Positions 2,470 through 29,914 of a stretch of DNA of 31,356 bases are shown one piece after another (positions within the stretch are counted from its first letter, which is position 1; each line of letters begins with the position of its first letter). The stretch is from a virus, in the IMG/VR virus record IMGVR_UViG_3300042319_000304, positions 1-31,356 of that record; one strand, written 5' to 3'. The notes under the pieces are model-generated. The model was given only the letters and a program-made list of their open reading frames with translations, had not been told where the DNA came from and ran no database searches. A program made the position numbers and the translations under genes.

Positions 2470-2943
2470 TCATACAGGATATGGATGCTCGATGATATCC
2501 CTTTGGTGCAAGTAATCACCCAATAATTGAACGGCTTTCTCATAGTGTTGGCGTGTTATTCTGTCGTGAGTTATCAAATTGTCAAATACATTCACCGCAT
2601 TCATCACGCTGGAATGGTCTCTATGTAGTATATAGCCAATTGATGCAAATGTCATCTTCAAATGTTTACGGCATAAATACGAAAACATATGACGTGAATA
2701 GGCGATGGCTTGTCTTCGGTTGTGCGAGATGACGAGATCAGGCGTTGTGTCGTAGGCTTGACAACATACCCTCATTGCATCTGTCCAATGTGCGTCAATG
2801 TTGTTGATGTCGCATTTTGGTTTAAGGATTTCACGTTTGAGCCTTGCTATCTCTTTGTCGTGTGTGACGGTTATGTGCGAAATCATCAATCGCAATCGCT
2901 TGATTTCTTGCTTTAGGTTGTGGGTTTCTTGGAATTGGTTCAT
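2470..2943 (-). CDS. DnaA domain-IV-like replication protein
   Basis: The protein is 157 aa from the ATG at 2943. That start makes an ATGA overlap with the upstream zinc-ribbon gene and is preferred to an in-frame ATG at 2970. Residues 1-45 look like a coiled coil (repeated K, L, R, E). The C-terminal half matches the DNA-binding domain of DnaA: an SRHMFSYLCRKHLKMTFASI helix, IG, then HRDHSSVMNAV, compare the DnaA signature GRDHSTVLHA. There is no AAA+ ATPase domain. The role is probably binding DnaA boxes at the phage origin, or competing with host DnaA. Its position just after the helicase cluster fits replication control. Confidence 0.75.
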   Translation of the reverse strand: MNQFQETHNLKQEIKRLRLMISHITVTHDKEIARLKREILKPKCDINNIDAHWTDAMRVCCQAYDTTPDLVISHNRRQAIAYSRHMFSYLCRKHLKMTFASIGYILHRDHSSVMNAVNVFDNLITHDRITRQHYEKAVQLLGDYLHQRDIIEHPYPV

Positions 2944-3254
2944 AGGAATGTGATTTTGCACTTTTGACATTTGTACTTGTTAACGGTCTTGAGCAACCAA
3001 ACACGTCCGATGCACTTACATTGTGGGCAATGCGGATGGTCTTTCACTTGAATTGAATCATAGATGGATTGCCAATACTCGTGACCTTGTGGTGTTTGAT
3101 CCCATTTGAACGCATCTAAGAGCATATCTTGGAGAGTGTGATAGCATTGCACCCTCTTATCTTTTTCAACAAGTTGGATGAATTCTTTGTAGTTTGGCAA
3201 AACCCTCGCCTTAGTGCGTAGCTGGTTGCTTCTTCGGTAGTCAATGATTGTCAT
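2940..3254 (-). CDS. Hypothetical protein with C-terminal zinc ribbon
   Basis: The 104-residue protein has a helical N-terminal two thirds of unknown type and a clear zinc ribbon at residues 75-101 (CPQC, then 16 residues, then CQKC). Such ribbons bind DNA or mediate protein contacts. It overlaps the 73-aa gene upstream and the DnaA-like gene downstream by four bases each, so the three are likely made together as a replication accessory set. I can assign no enzymatic function. Confidence 0.75.
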   Translation of the reverse strand: MTIIDYRRSNQLRTKARVLPNYKEFIQLVEKDKRVQCYHTLQDMLLDAFKWDQTPQGHEYWQSIYDSIQVKDHPHCPQCKCIGRVWLLKTVNKYKCQKCKITFL

Positions 3255-3472: not shown

Positions 3473-4055
3473 AGGAGTTTATTTTTCTTGTTAATGATTT
3501 TTTGATTTGTACAACTTCGAGTAATTCTTTTGGGAGATTTTGAACGTGATTCCTTCGCATATGCTCTACACGATCTATCACTTCCAAATTCTCAATTGTG
3601 ATATTGTTTTTGTTTCGGTCTTTGAACACCACAAACATTCCCTTTGGAACTTCTCCGTTGTGTTGTTTCCACAAAAGGATGTGAACAAACTGAAATCCCT
3701 TCTCCACTCTTTCAACCAGGTATCCATCACGGAATGAACGATGTCCAATTGGTTTGGTGTTGTGTGGTGGTTGCCCTTTTTTAAATTGGGTTTCTTTCCC
3801 TCCGATTTGTAAACCCTTCATTCCTTTGTTCCACGACTTCATTCCTTTTTTGAATTGGGTGTGTTCATACCCTTTGTAATTTTCTTTGTAGTAGCTCATC
3901 AACCAGTCCTGGTCTTTGTTTAATCCGATTCTTTTTGCACGGTTGTAAATGCGTTTTATACTGCACCCGAAATGAATTGCCAAATCTTTTGACAATGTTG
4001 TGGGGTACAATTTTACAAGCTCATCGCTCTCGGCTTTAGTCCATCTCTTTGTCAT
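3453..4055 (-). CDS. HNH homing endonuclease
   Basis: The 200-residue protein has a SANT/Myb-like helix-turn-helix at the N-terminus (about residues 4-45, WTKAESDELVKLYP ... IKRIYNRAKRIGL). A lysine/glycine-rich middle has the NUMOD-like repeats HTQFKKGMKSWNKG and ETQFKKGQ. The C-terminal HNH_3-type nuclease starts at about residue 122 (HILLWKQHNGEVPKG, then FKDRNKNN and IENLEVIDR). Free-standing homing endonucleases of this layout spread between phages by cutting alleles that lack them. It lies between the helicase and the 73-aa gene and overlaps both, so its insertion kept translational coupling (ATGA with the helicase). Confidence 0.88.
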   Translation of the reverse strand: MTKRWTKAESDELVKLYPTTLSKDLAIHFGCSIKRIYNRAKRIGLNKDQDWLMSYYKENYKGYEHTQFKKGMKSWNKGMKGLQIGGKETQFKKGQPPHNTKPIGHRSFRDGYLVERVEKGFQFVHILLWKQHNGEVPKGMFVVFKDRNKNNITIENLEVIDRVEHMRRNHVQNLPKELLEVVQIKKSLTRKINSYGKKQN

Positions 4056-5290
4056 CCTCTTTCTTTATACATTGTTCGATTGCCAATATAATTGACATCA
4101 ATGATTCCACATTCACCGTGCCTGTTCTTTGATATAATCAATTCGGCTTCTTCGATTTCGGGTTGAACGCTTTCATATTTGGCTGGTCGGAAAGGGAACA
4201 TAACCACATCTGCATCTTGTTCGATACTTCCGCTCTCTCTTATGTCGGACAACATCGGTCTTTTGTCTGCTCTATCTTCAGGCTTCCGTGATAACTGAGC
4301 CAACACAATCACGGTGATTTGCAATTCCTTTGCCAACAATTTCAACCCCCTTGAAATTTCCGCAATTTCTTGCTCTCTGTTTTGTTTGCTACCCTTCATT
4401 AACTGGATGTAGTCAATCACGAGTAAGTCCAACCCGTGCTTTGCTTTGTGCGTTTTGGCTTTGGCTTTGACTTGCTGAATAGATGCGTTGGGTTCTTCGT
4501 CAACAAAGAAATCTACTTGGCTTCTGTTGACAGAATCACATAAATGGAAAAGTTCGTGTTCTCTCAATGTCGCATTGCGTATCTTCCAATTGACAATTTC
4601 GGTGATCAATGAGAAATATCTTTTTGCCAATTGTTCTGCACTCATTTCCAAACTGATAATTAACCCCTTACCACCCAATTTGCCAAACTCATATATCAAA
4701 GACAATGCAAGTGCAGTTTTACCCATTCCTGGTCTCGCTGCCATCACTATCAAATCACCAGCGTTCCAACCTCCCAACATTTTGTCAAGCGATTTCCAAC
4801 CCGTTCTTTTGCCTGTTATGGCTTCGCCACGGCTTATGGCTTCTGTTATGGTGTCCAATGCTTTTGCACTCACCTTGTGGATTGAAACTGGATCGTGTAT
4901 GGTTGTGAACCTCGTGTTATCAATTGCGTTTTGTGTGTACTCCAATAACTCCTTCAAACTTTTGGTTAAATCAATCTGCCCCAATTGTGCAATGAATTGC
5001 TTTTGCAAAAAGCTTTGTTCTAACCTCGGAAGATACTCGCTCACATTTGCCACGTTGGACACATTTTGTCCAATCATTATCACTTGCATTCGTTCGCTCT
5101 TGGTGTAACCATCGGTTAAACTCATATAATCTATTGGTTCATTATCAAAGTATTTGTCTTGCATCCTCTTAATCACTTTGCGATGCAATGGTATCTCAAA
5201 CCAATCCGCTTTCATTCTTGGTAACAACGCCCGTGTTTGTTCGTAAAACAACAATTGACCCAAAATGTAATCTTCTAATTTCTCATTCAT
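4052..5290 (-). CDS. dnaB: Replicative DNA helicase, DnaB family
   Basis: The 412-residue protein has the two DnaB parts. The helical N-terminal domain (residues 1-100, starting KLEDYILGQLLF) makes hexamer and primase contacts. The RecA-like motor carries Walker A AARPGMGKTA at about 185-195, Walker B LLVIDYIQLM at about 290, and the sensor block VIVLAQLSRKPEDR with DIRESGSIEQDAD near 325-360. It unwinds the phage fork 5'-3'. The start overlaps the end of the replisome organiser gene by 8 bases, the usual loader/helicase coupling. No primase domain or separate primase gene is visible, so host DnaG is presumably borrowed. Confidence 0.95.
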   Translation of the reverse strand: MNEKLEDYILGQLLFYEQTRALLPRMKADWFEIPLHRKVIKRMQDKYFDNEPIDYMSLTDGYTKSERMQVIMIGQNVSNVANVSEYLPRLEQSFLQKQFIAQLGQIDLTKSLKELLEYTQNAIDNTRFTTIHDPVSIHKVSAKALDTITEAISRGEAITGKRTGWKSLDKMLGGWNAGDLIVMAARPGMGKTALALSLIYEFGKLGGKGLIISLEMSAEQLAKRYFSLITEIVNWKIRNATLREHELFHLCDSVNRSQVDFFVDEEPNASIQQVKAKAKTHKAKHGLDLLVIDYIQLMKGSKQNREQEIAEISRGLKLLAKELQITVIVLAQLSRKPEDRADKRPMLSDIRESGSIEQDADVVMFPFRPAKYESVQPEIEEAELIISKNRHGECGIIDVNYIGNRTMYKERG

Positions 5291-5897
5291 AGTCCGCCAA
5301 ATTAAATCTTTTTAATACTGGAGCTTCTGTTTTTGGTGCAGTTTTTTTATCATCTTCCCAATTCCTCACCGCTGCCTTCCAGTCCTTCATTTTGTTTTTA
5401 CCTACCATCCATCCCTTTGATTCATAAAAGTTGTGGAAACGACTTGCATAGTTGCTCATTCCTCTTTCTTTCATATACTCCTCTACTTGTTCAAGAGTTG
5501 GTTTTTGAAATGATGCTACCTTTTTACTTTTATTTAAATCTTTATTTTCATTTTCATTTTCATTTTCCATATGTTCATCATATGTTTTAGATGTGTCAAT
5601 CATATCTTCTTTCTTTTTACGATTGTTCCTTCTTGATTCCGAATATGCTTTTCTCTTTTGAACCTCTTCTTTCAATCTCTCGTTGTAGAACTTGCCATCG
5701 TTGTCTTTCTTGAATTTACTGAATATATCTTCATCATATGTTCCACATATCTGTAACATATCTTTTTCAATCATATGTCCTTTTTGATGCTGGATGCAAA
5801 GCAAAGTGATAAACTTCCCTTTTTGCTCCATTGACATCAGCAAAGTACCAGTCAAGAAATCCGATGAGTAAAATAAGAATGCCGGATCTTTGCTCAT
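5283..5897 (-). CDS. Replisome organiser / helicase loader (DnaD/DnaT-like)
   Basis: The protein is 204 aa from the ATG at 5897, which lies just after the previous stop; an upstream in-frame ATG at 5942 would overlap that gene. The N-terminal winged-helix block KDPAFLFYSSDFLTGT plus EQKGKFITLLCIQHQKGH is typical of phage replication organisers (DUF1376-like). The middle is charged and low in complexity, with an ENENENEN stretch. The C-terminal block opens PTLEQVEEYMKERG and contains FYESKGWMVGKNKMKDWKAA, as in DnaT/DnaD-type helicase-loading modules. It should bind the origin and recruit the adjacent DnaB helicase. Confidence 0.85.
   Translation of the reverse strand: MSKDPAFLFYSSDFLTGTLLMSMEQKGKFITLLCIQHQKGHMIEKDMLQICGTYDEDIFSKFKKDNDGKFYNERLKEEVQKRKAYSESRRNNRKKKEDMIDTSKTYDEHMENENENENKDLNKSKKVASFQKPTLEQVEEYMKERGMSNYASRFHNFYESKGWMVGKNKMKDWKAAVRNWEDDKKTAPKTEAPVLKRFNLADYE
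5544..5567. repeat. Four tandem hexamers inside organiser gene
   Basis: ATTTTC is repeated four times on the plus strand (GAAAAT on the coding strand), encoding alternating Glu-Asn in the linker of the replisome organiser. Unit changes would keep the reading frame, so linker length could vary between relatives by slippage. Confidence 0.8.
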
Positions 5898-5898
5898 A

Positions 5899-6105
5899 CT
5901 AATTAAGATTAATTTGTTGTGAGATTGAATTCCGTATTTCAATCAGGTTGTTTTCGGTTGCCCATCGCTTTGTTGGTAAGTGTTCATCCAACATCATTTT
6001 TGCGTTGTCAATTAGGAAATCATAAGTAAAATAATACTCACCATTTCGGTAGATTTTAATCACTACCCATTTCAATTCAATCCGTGTTTTTGTTTCAAAT
6101 TTCAT
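5899..6105 (-). CDS. Hypothetical 68-aa protein
   Basis: The 68-residue protein of unknown function opens MKFETKTRIELKWVVIKIYR, then has a Tyr-rich beta-like stretch (GEYYFTYDF) and a helical C-terminus. It is first in the replication operon, one base before the organiser start. Its ATG comes only five bases after a T7 tract and the hairpin described at 6110-6161, so its expression may depend on read-through or attenuation. Confidence 0.65.
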   Translation of the reverse strand: MKFETKTRIELKWVVIKIYRNGEYYFTYDFLIDNAKMMLDEHLPTKRWATENNLIEIRNSISQQINLN

Positions 6106-6109
6106 AAAT

Positions 6110-6161
6110 AAAAAAACCCCATCGAAATAGTGCAGTTGCAGTGCGACTATTCCAACAGGGT
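6110..6161 (-). terminator. Long G.U-containing hairpin with T tract (terminator or attenuator)
   Basis: On the minus-strand RNA, the 16 bases from 6161 to 6146 pair with 6131 to 6116 without a mismatch when G.U is allowed: 12 Watson-Crick and 4 G.U pairs. The inner part holds a short 3-bp stem and a small loop. T7 follows at 6116-6110. On the plus strand the four wobble pairs become A/C mismatches, so the fold is specific to the minus transcript. It sits between the promoter-like site at 6208 and the ATG at 6105. Confidence 0.7.
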
Positions 6162-6207
6162 AAAAATCTTTTAACTTTGAGAAACTGCAACCTTCTCGTT
6201 AACCCTA

Positions 6208-6239
6208 CAAATATAATCAATCAAACATTATATCCCAAA
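6208..6239 (-). promoter_or_regulatory. Promoter candidate upstream of replication operon
   Basis: The minus strand has TTTG (6239-6236), a 20-base spacer, and TATATTTG (6215-6208). Both elements and the spacing fit the Bacteroidetes vegetative promoter TTTG-N19-21-TAnnTTTG. The upstream element lies in the last codons of the gene at 6221-6496. Transcription would begin near 6200, giving a leader of about 95 bases that contains the hairpin at 6110-6161. Confidence 0.6.
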
Positions 6240-7761: not shown

Positions 7762-7779
7762 GGGGGCAATTACGCCCCC
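7762..7779. terminator. GC-rich stem-loop, weak terminator
   Basis: GGGGGC at 7762-7767 pairs with GCCCCC at 7774-7779 around a six-base loop. On the minus strand it is followed by TTAATTATAC, a poor U tract, so termination would be partial. It lies in the 53-base gap between the 108-aa gene and the small membrane protein gene, and may act as an mRNA stabiliser or processing end. Confidence 0.5.
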
Positions 7780-27749: not shown

Positions 27750-28937
27750 TTAAGCAAAATAAAATGTTCCCGGTCTGTTGTGTTTCTTGCAATCGTTGGC
27801 GAGTGCAAGGGAGTTGACTGCGTCATCGTGAAGACCTGATGGTGCTGTATATCTAACCCCATTACGGGTGTATTCAAATTCAAAGTTTTCCAATTCCCCA
27901 CCATAGGGATTTTCGGGAAATCTTATGTTATTGCCTTGAATCTCCATCACCAAACTTTCAATGAGTTGTTGTTTGCTTTGGCTTGTGTACTTGAATCCAA
28001 ATATCTTTGGCAATACCTTTTGCAAATCCTCCACGATTGGATCACCCAAACCCGTTGCGTCTATATAGGCTGGTGTTTTTCCAACAACTGAAATGATTTT
28101 GTTCTTGGTTTGTGTCCAATCGGCTTGGAATCTGTCAGTATAACACACACGATTCTCGTTGTCCAATCCCGTTATCACTGTCCAATCCGTATATTTTGCA
28201 AGGTCAATCCCAAATGCTACTGGTGCTTTGTTGCTTATTGGTGCTACGCATCGGTGGATTGCATCAATTCCGAATGGGTTTGTCTTGTCATCCGCTGGTT
28301 CTGCCAAATACAACTCGTTGAAAACGTGAAGTGGGAGATCTCGTTTGGCTTGTTCAACCTCTTCCAGTTTGAGAATGCCTTCCTTGACCGCATCATATGC
28401 CGTAATCTTGAAATACTTATATTCATTCTCACCACTTCTCGCACGTTCACCCAATTTGTAGAACCAATTCTTCTTTCCTTTGACGTTTCCAATCAGTTTA
28501 CACTTGCCTTGTGTCGCAGTTAGGGTTGAACGCATAGCATACCACGATTCCTCACGCATCCTTGATGCCTCATCTATCACCGCAGCGTAGACATCATCCC
28601 CATACAAGTTGTCAGGCTTCTCCCCTGATTTGAATTCTATCCTTGCACCCGTTGGAAGAGTGAGTAATAGTTTGGTTTCGTTACTGATAAAGAAGTTCTT
28701 GTCCGTGACTTGTGACTTCATCCTTCGGAATGCAATCTCCGCTTGTTGGTATACCGGTGCAACCCACCACACGGATTGATTGTCCTTGCATTTTAACGCT
28801 TGTTCAAATAACCATATGATATGACTTGCCGTTTTACCCGTCTTTGTACTCGCAGCAGTAATGGTAAAACGAGCATCACAATCAAGGATGTCTTTTTGGT
28901 AACTCGTGACATATGGTCTTTGATAGGTTATTTGCAT
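27750..28937 (-). CDS. terL: Terminase large subunit
   Basis: The 395-residue protein has both terminase domains. The ATPase has a Walker A variant STKTGKT at 30-36 and Walker B VIDEA at 120-124. The RNase-H-like nuclease has FGIDLAKYTDWTV at about 240, YIDATGLGD at about 290 and the last acidic pair HDDAVNSLALA at 370-380. It cuts concatemers and pumps DNA into the prohead through the portal. It is separated from TerS by two small genes and two glycosyltransferases, and overlaps the second of these by 10 bases. Confidence 0.96.
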   Translation of the reverse strand: MQITYQRPYVTSYQKDILDCDARFTITAASTKTGKTASHIIWLFEQALKCKDNQSVWWVAPVYQQAEIAFRRMKSQVTDKNFFISNETKLLLTLPTGARIEFKSGEKPDNLYGDDVYAAVIDEASRMREESWYAMRSTLTATQGKCKLIGNVKGKKNWFYKLGERARSGENEYKYFKITAYDAVKEGILKLEEVEQAKRDLPLHVFNELYLAEPADDKTNPFGIDAIHRCVAPISNKAPVAFGIDLAKYTDWTVITGLDNENRVCYTDRFQADWTQTKNKIISVVGKTPAYIDATGLGDPIVEDLQKVLPKIFGFKYTSQSKQQLIESLVMEIQGNNIRFPENPYGGELENFEFEYTRNGVRYTAPSGLHDDAVNSLALANDCKKHNRPGTFYFA

Positions 28938-29914
28938 AAACTTTGATAAACACTCAATCGTGTCAGGTTGTGCAATTCAAGGTTGTGGTATGTCTCACAA
29001 TAGATTTTGTTTGAACGCCCCATTGATTGTCTCACCGAATGACCAGCATCAATCAACTTTTGGATGGATGCCTTCCAATTGTTTTGGGTTGCGAAGATTA
29101 CACCATCATTTCCCGTATGGTATAAGTATGGGTAGACCGCTGAACAGATAATGGGGATAGAATAGGCAGCGGCTTCCACAATCTTCAACTCCGATTTGCA
29201 GTTGTTGAAGTGGTTGTCCTGAAGGGGTGCAAGTACGAAATCAAAGTGCTTGTAGACCTCACCGTATTCAAATACCGAAGTGCCTTGAACGATGTTGGCT
29301 TTTGGAATCAGTTTCACGATGTTGTTCCAATGATCACTCGGAGTGTAACCGCAAATGTAGAAATCCACATCCATTGAATTGATGTCATCGGCAATGAGCT
29401 TCAAATCCTCCTCGTGTGTGATTCCACCAACCCATCCAATTTTCACTCTCTCGTTCTTTTCCTTTGGTTGCTTCCATTGGTTGTGAGATGTATCCAGGCA
29501 GTTTGGCACAATGTAGACATTCTCATTGATTGTCCTCACTTCATTGGCGAGTTTTTGAGTGGTGCAGAATACGGCATCCGCATAGTTGATGGCATCCTTG
29601 ATGGAGTTCTTGATCCCTTTGCGATATGCCCAGTATGCAGGATTATATTTTGGTAACACCCAATAGTCATCCACATCTATGACATAAGGCTTCCCGGCAT
29701 CTGTGATGCGTTTCAAGACATCGTACTGATTCTTGCCAAGCCATCGTGAGAAGACAATTACATCGTAGGGTGCAAGGTCAACCGTCATCCATTCGGCTTG
29801 TGATTGGCAGACATCAACCACCGCTTCTCCGTTTATTTGCATTCTCAAATGTGGTGCGTAGATGCGATGGTAAACCACACCATTGATTCCGTCTGTTAGT
29901 ATTAAGAGTTTCAT
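28928..29914 (-). CDS. GT4-family glycosyltransferase (328 aa)
   Basis: The N-terminal Rossmann-like part includes MKLLILTDGINGVVYHRIYA and VIDVDDYWV. The linker is VPNCLDTSHNQW. The donor-binding domain has KIGWVGGITHEEDLKLIADD and the GT-B motif K-S-E-L-K-I-V-E-A-A-A-Y with the conserved E-x7-E spacing. It transfers an activated sugar to an unknown acceptor. It sits inside the terminase module between TerS and TerL, next to a GT9-like gene, and overlaps TerL by 10 bases. Possible targets are virion proteins, phage DNA or host surface glycan; nothing here decides which. Confidence 0.85.
   Translation of the reverse strand: MKLLILTDGINGVVYHRIYAPHLRMQINGEAVVDVCQSQAEWMTVDLAPYDVIVFSRWLGKNQYDVLKRITDAGKPYVIDVDDYWVLPKYNPAYWAYRKGIKNSIKDAINYADAVFCTTQKLANEVRTINENVYIVPNCLDTSHNQWKQPKEKNERVKIGWVGGITHEEDLKLIADDINSMDVDFYICGYTPSDHWNNIVKLIPKANIVQGTSVFEYGEVYKHFDFVLAPLQDNHFNNCKSELKIVEAAAYSIPIICSAVYPYLYHTGNDGVIFATQNNWKASIQKLIDAGHSVRQSMGRSNKIYCETYHNLELHNLTRLSVYQSLCK

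Follow-up and report, generated by a model that had tools for sequence, protein, structure and literature searches.

Two kissing hairpins in the leader of a phage replication operon, a candidate RNA attenuator

The uncultured phage record IMGVR_UViG_3300042319_000304 from IMG/VR, analysed over its whole length of 31,356 bases (hereafter the window), carries on its minus strand a predicted 94-nucleotide (nt) leader RNA placed before replication genes. The element is composed of a promoter, two hairpins termed P1 and P2 with complementary apical loops, and a terminator U-run next to a start codon (Table 1), and is considered here as a candidate attenuator in which the two loops pair with each other, hereafter the kiss.

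The promoter-like motif TTTG-N20-TATATTTG, which a first-pass annotation made from the letters of the window had pointed out, is present, and its upstream TTTG box lies inside the last codons of the small preceding gene, so that the promoter overlaps the end of that gene. The flavobacterial consensus TAnnTTTG sits at -12 to -5 (PMC9723704); transcription is therefore predicted to start at G6203, giving a leader of 94 nt and not of 95 as annotated. The long hairpin of the same annotation, with a 16-pair stem including four G.U pairs, was found again as the lower part of P2, and seven T follow it, with the start codon ATG at 6105, four bases past the T-run instead of five. P1 had been overlooked, and so had the perfect complementarity of the two loops, the feature of this design that is conserved best. 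RNA folding of the minus-strand RNA 6203-6110 revealed two hairpins with an energy of -29.0 kcal/mol compared to -17.6 kcal/mol for shuffles (z = -3.8), whereas the plus-strand RNA of the leader reached only -16.6 kcal/mol (z = -1.4). Therefore, the strand asymmetry is real, in agreement with the strand-specific hairpin described before.

Table 1. Features of the leader, the genes behind it and the leaders of similar architecture in other phages; positions are those of the window unless a locus is named.
Feature	Position	Strand	Remarks
Bacteroidota-type promoter	6208..6239	-	TTTG 6239-6236, 20-nt spacer, TATATTTG 6215-6208
Whole leader element, predicted 94-nt RNA	6110..6203	-	+1 (G6203) to end of U-run; fold z -3.8; R1 score 105.5 bits
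Hairpin P1	6171..6202	-	minimum free energy (MFE) fold; extreme 5' end of predicted RNA
P1 outer stem	6202-6198 / 6175-6171	-	UUAAC / GUUAA, 5 base pairs (bp); MFE fold
P1 inner stem	6197-6192 / 6184-6179	-	GAGAAG / UUUCUC; AAA bulge 6178-6176
P1 apical loop, 5' kissing partner	6185..6191	-	GUUGCAG, 7 nt; covaries with 6141-6135 in relatives
Linker joining P1 to P2	6162..6170	-	AAGAUUUUU, 9 nt
Hairpin P2, intrinsic-terminator stem	6116..6161	-	19 pairs; 5' arm 6161-6142 (bulged C6145), 3' arm 6134-6116
P2 apical loop, 3' kissing partner	6135..6141	-	CUGCAAC, 7 nt; exact reverse complement of 6191-6185
Terminator U-run	6110..6116	-	seven U; first U also pairs with A6161
First gene past terminator	5899..6105	-	68 amino acids; orphan without known family
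Organiser/primosomal-like gene	5283..5897	-	phrog_15768, weak DUF1376; ATG at 5897
DnaB-like replicative helicase	4052..5290	-	PF03796, E 3e-85
Lineage L149/L151/L157	L151:5440-5560		loops GUUGCGG/CCGCAAC
Lineage L338	L338:2384-2488		loops GAGUCAG/CUGACUC
Lineage L346	L346:2190-2310		loops GGUCAAG/CUUGACC

Relatives were collected via three proteins (helicase, organiser-like and upstream), and many of them are partial contigs. An early look at the region 3' of the upstream gene already revealed loops that change together among relatives. When the sequences were searched for a pair of hairpins whose 7-nt loops are complementary and which precede a T-run, 98 loci were found, compared to 4-5 instances with wrong-target controls. 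The first alignment (A1) was chosen for complementarity and thus proves little about the kiss; its pair count was replaced by model-based counts. A stem-length, structure-only assignment of the P1 loop misplaced the loop in one third of the elements, and the count based on it was discarded. The selection bias was removed by a covariance model (R1) built from the nested pairs only, with no loop-loop term. This kissing-blind model recovered the window element at 105.5 bits and collected 113 elements, one per locus, all located on the helicase strand where the helicase set the orientation. The element was present in 72 of the 81 sources of the helicase set, and none of the 17 virus records reached through the loci contained two.

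In a set of 75 distinct elements, the two loop regions form a longest Watson-Crick run of 7-8 in 65 cases, of 6 in six and of 5 in four; for cross-paired or shuffled loops the run peaks at 4. With the kiss added afterwards to the alignments of R1 itself, 96.8% and 97.9% of the kiss cells were paired, and six of the seven kiss pairs showed changes on both sides. Sliding the structure by 1-3 columns decreased the pairing from 93-95% to 38-49%, and the observed covariation was matched by no shuffle. The paired cells of P1 reached 93-94% in the inner stem and 91-95% in the outer stem, with two-sided changes, and 17-18 of the 19 pairs of P2 changed on both sides; these nested counts are biased toward their own structure, to which the alignment was fitted, whereas the kiss counts are free of that bias. 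At least 20 distinct loop pairs occur among the relatives, U2-A6 being the only invariant or nearly invariant pair, and the loop-to-loop distance is 45-51 nt. Compensatory changes, which the first-pass annotation had named as a check of its hairpin, are abundant, and the structure of two hairpins and a kissing helix is well supported by comparison.

A box of the TAnnTTTG type was found at the right place in all 93 distinct contexts (87 exact, 6 near), with TTG 18-22 nt upstream of it in 81. In 92 of the 93 contexts the U-run ends 0-13 nt upstream of the start codon, about half of them directly at the ATG, so that a promoter for the next gene has no space there. Therefore, expression of that gene requires read-through. 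The genes in this position are mutually non-homologous, comprising orphans of 68-75 amino acids, organiser-like proteins, primosomal or replication-initiation proteins, and HNH or other endonucleases, which argues for a cis-acting leader. A homing-type HNH endonuclease stands directly 3' of the leader in many relatives (L080:616-1122, and also L032, L035, L037, L043 and L079), suggesting that modules are exchanged with particular frequency at the junction of leader and gene.

The earlier proposal of an attenuator before the organiser and helicase genes agrees with the order in the window, where the orphan, the weak organiser-like gene and the DnaB helicase follow one another; it gains from the compensatory changes, from the U-run abutting the start codon in nearly all relatives and from the non-homologous downstream genes. 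Its form as a lone hairpin has to be given up, as the element consists of two hairpins and a covarying 7-bp kissing loop, implying a more specific mechanism. Comparison of the relatives establishes the two hairpins, the kissing helix, the layout of promoter and terminator, one copy per genome and a site before replication genes. From these we infer the regulation, its direction (antitermination by the kiss) and a trigger that would set the balance, which may be a protein, an RNA or the elongation speed.

We consider it probable that this region, as the 5' leader of the replication operon, acts as an RNA attenuator of two kissing hairpins, the kiss being antiterminating. In the proposed course of events, RNA polymerase would start at about G6203, and P1 would fold first and present its 7-nt loop. 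Upon emergence of the complementary P2 loop soon after, the two loops would pair. With P1 closed and the loops kissing, about 4-5 bp at the foot of P2, which are GC-rich and lie beside the U-run, would stay open, resulting in read-through into the replication genes. Without the kiss, or with an open P1 base, P2 would close fully and transcription would stop just before the start codon, leaving the 94-nt RNA.

By a rigid-helix estimate, a closed P1 base, the kiss and full P2 together require 85-105 Å with bends up to 60°, compared to a linker span of about 62 Å. The strain is relieved by opening either the 4-5 foot pairs of P2, on which termination depends, or the 5-bp P1 base. Therefore, the linker is too short, and any two of the P1 base, the kiss and the full terminator fit, but not all three together. 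The same steric-linker mechanism was proposed for the guanidine-IV riboswitch (PMC7736828), where it is supported by single-molecule work in which the linker became shorter as P2 grew, impeding the kissing loop (PMC11611296). On these grounds, antitermination by the kiss is favoured. Several points weigh against this proposal: rigid-helix geometry would hardly exclude coexistence near 90° bends; it is equally conceivable that the terminated form is the one stabilised by the kiss, the P1 base being open, an arrangement that the geometry also allows and the equilibrium may prefer; and no trigger was found for the switch. An alternative pairing AGGGU/ACCCU, tried as the antiterminator, is not conserved.

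The kiss might also strengthen termination, the loop contact nucleating or clamping P2, so that the element would be either a stable small RNA or a partial terminator of tuned strength, and not a switch. The kiss and full P2 are compatible once the 5-bp P1 base is open, and this base is weak, with about -6 kcal/mol for the whole of P1 and -23.1 kcal/mol for P2 in the window. However, such a role leaves unexplained both the narrow loop spacing and the conservation of a stem at the P1 base (91-95% of its cells paired), and we regard it as unlikely.

The guanidine-IV riboswitch (GGAM-1, with its variant Gd4v) shares with the phage leader two hairpins, a loop-loop pseudoknot, a 3' hairpin that is an intrinsic terminator with about seven U directly before the start codon, and non-homologous downstream genes, and antitermination via a stretched linker has been proposed for it (PMC7736828, PMC9788692, PMC11611296). 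In contrast to its conserved core, the phage loops are variable and pair with all seven bases, and the genes behind the phage leader are phage replication genes. As only the U2-A6 loop pair is (nearly) invariant, no conserved ligand pocket is evident in the phage element. Targets of ANTAR proteins are likewise dual hairpins, of which the 3' one overlaps a terminator, with 6-nt loops, fixed A1 and G4 and no known kiss; identity with them was rejected, as the phage loops are 7 nt long, complementary and variable, and not hexaloops with A1 and G4.

Antisense RNAs control plasmid copy number in ColE1, where RNAI and RNAII have 7-nt kissing loops, and in pT181. RNAII of pMV158 belongs to antisense-RNA control of plasmid copy number as well (PMC4485353). 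These plasmids are alike in that replication genes are governed via kissing loops or a leader attenuator, whereas in the phage leader both loops are located on one transcript. A conserved antisense promoter was not found; the sole TAnnTTTG on the opposite strand, TAACTTTG (6172-6179, plus strand, inside P1), resembles a -7 box for an antisense RNA but lacks conservation even among near relatives. In the immunity systems of the phages P4 (CI) and P1 (c4), base pairing in a phage leader leads to early termination before replication or antirepressor genes, and these RNAs act via a separate complementary RNA copy. A second complementary copy of the P4 CI type was not found elsewhere in 810 kb of loci, among them many partial genomes.

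The phage leader could also act in trans, controlling copy number or incompatibility by RNA alone: the terminated 94-nt RNA would accumulate with the phage copy number, bind nascent leaders through its loops, block the cis kiss and lower the replication genes, and the loop sequence would set the specificity between co-infecting phages. The turnover of loop pairs resembles incompatibility groups, with at least 20 pairs within one phage group and a different pair in 53 of 93 comparisons of phages whose helicases are 99-100% identical. On the helicase tree (88 rows, 21 loop states) the loop type changes at least 48 times, compared to 69 when shuffled. However, among phages with a similarity of at least 85% in both flanks, the loops differ in only one of 35 comparisons, indicating that the element mostly travels with the neighbouring gene in a mosaic module. 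In addition, no hairpin with these 7-nt loops was found outside the element in the same 810 kb, and control in trans therefore appears quite improbable. A test for diversifying selection on the loops could not separate it from module exchange. Finally, it is very improbable that the element is an independent small RNA of the phage, equipped with promoter and terminator and merely placed before the operon: the predicted transcript begins exactly at P1, ends at the U-run and is compact like a small-RNA gene, but in 92 of the 93 contexts the start codon follows too closely (0-13 nt) for the next gene to have a separate promoter.

The same architecture with unrelated sequence was found in three unrelated phage lineages (Table 1); in the 3.15 Mb searched, wrong-target controls returned 0, 3, 0 and 0 raw hits. 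Sigma-70-like promoters and Shine-Dalgarno-like sites accompany the elements of L151 and L338, both of which are followed immediately by a gene of the DnaD-like helicase-loader type, and in L346 a short frame lies between the leader and the next gene. Going further, one might think of an undescribed phage RNA in which cis and trans kissing of variable loops sets the read-through of the replication operon, with the loop sequence as a specificity code, arisen more than once in unrelated phages; to this idea we give little credence.

R1 yielded weak matches only on 31 whole genomes (E about 0.6-0.8), the leader DNA gave only short chance matches to isolated phages, and no close kin of the helicase were found among isolated phages and 85,000 prokaryote species. 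Searches of the window, the leader and the relatives with Rfam 15 returned only chance-like matches at the gathering threshold or at E <= 10, and the guanidine-IV riboswitch was not confirmed among its 4227 models. A description of the element was not found in the literature, for which coverage of subscription journals is thin.

Elsewhere in the window, the replication region contains a protein with the C-terminal DNA-binding domain of DnaA (2470-2970, minus strand; PF08299, E 4.5e-15), possibly origin-binding. A very GC-rich hairpin, GGGGGCGTAATTGCCCCC (7762-7779, minus strand), in an intergenic gap is a terminator candidate without a kissing partner, and a glycosyltransferase gene (28928-29914, minus strand; phrog_7162, E 7e-59) adjoins the terminase gene.

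With the leader described here, the known phage RNAs would gain a widespread family that controls the switch-on of replication genes and, as far as tested, is not contained in Rfam. It would also show that a kissing-hairpin terminator of the guanidine-IV style exists without a conserved ligand pocket. In addition, the loop pairs constitute about 20 natural orthogonal variants, which would allow a direct mutational test of cis versus trans action.
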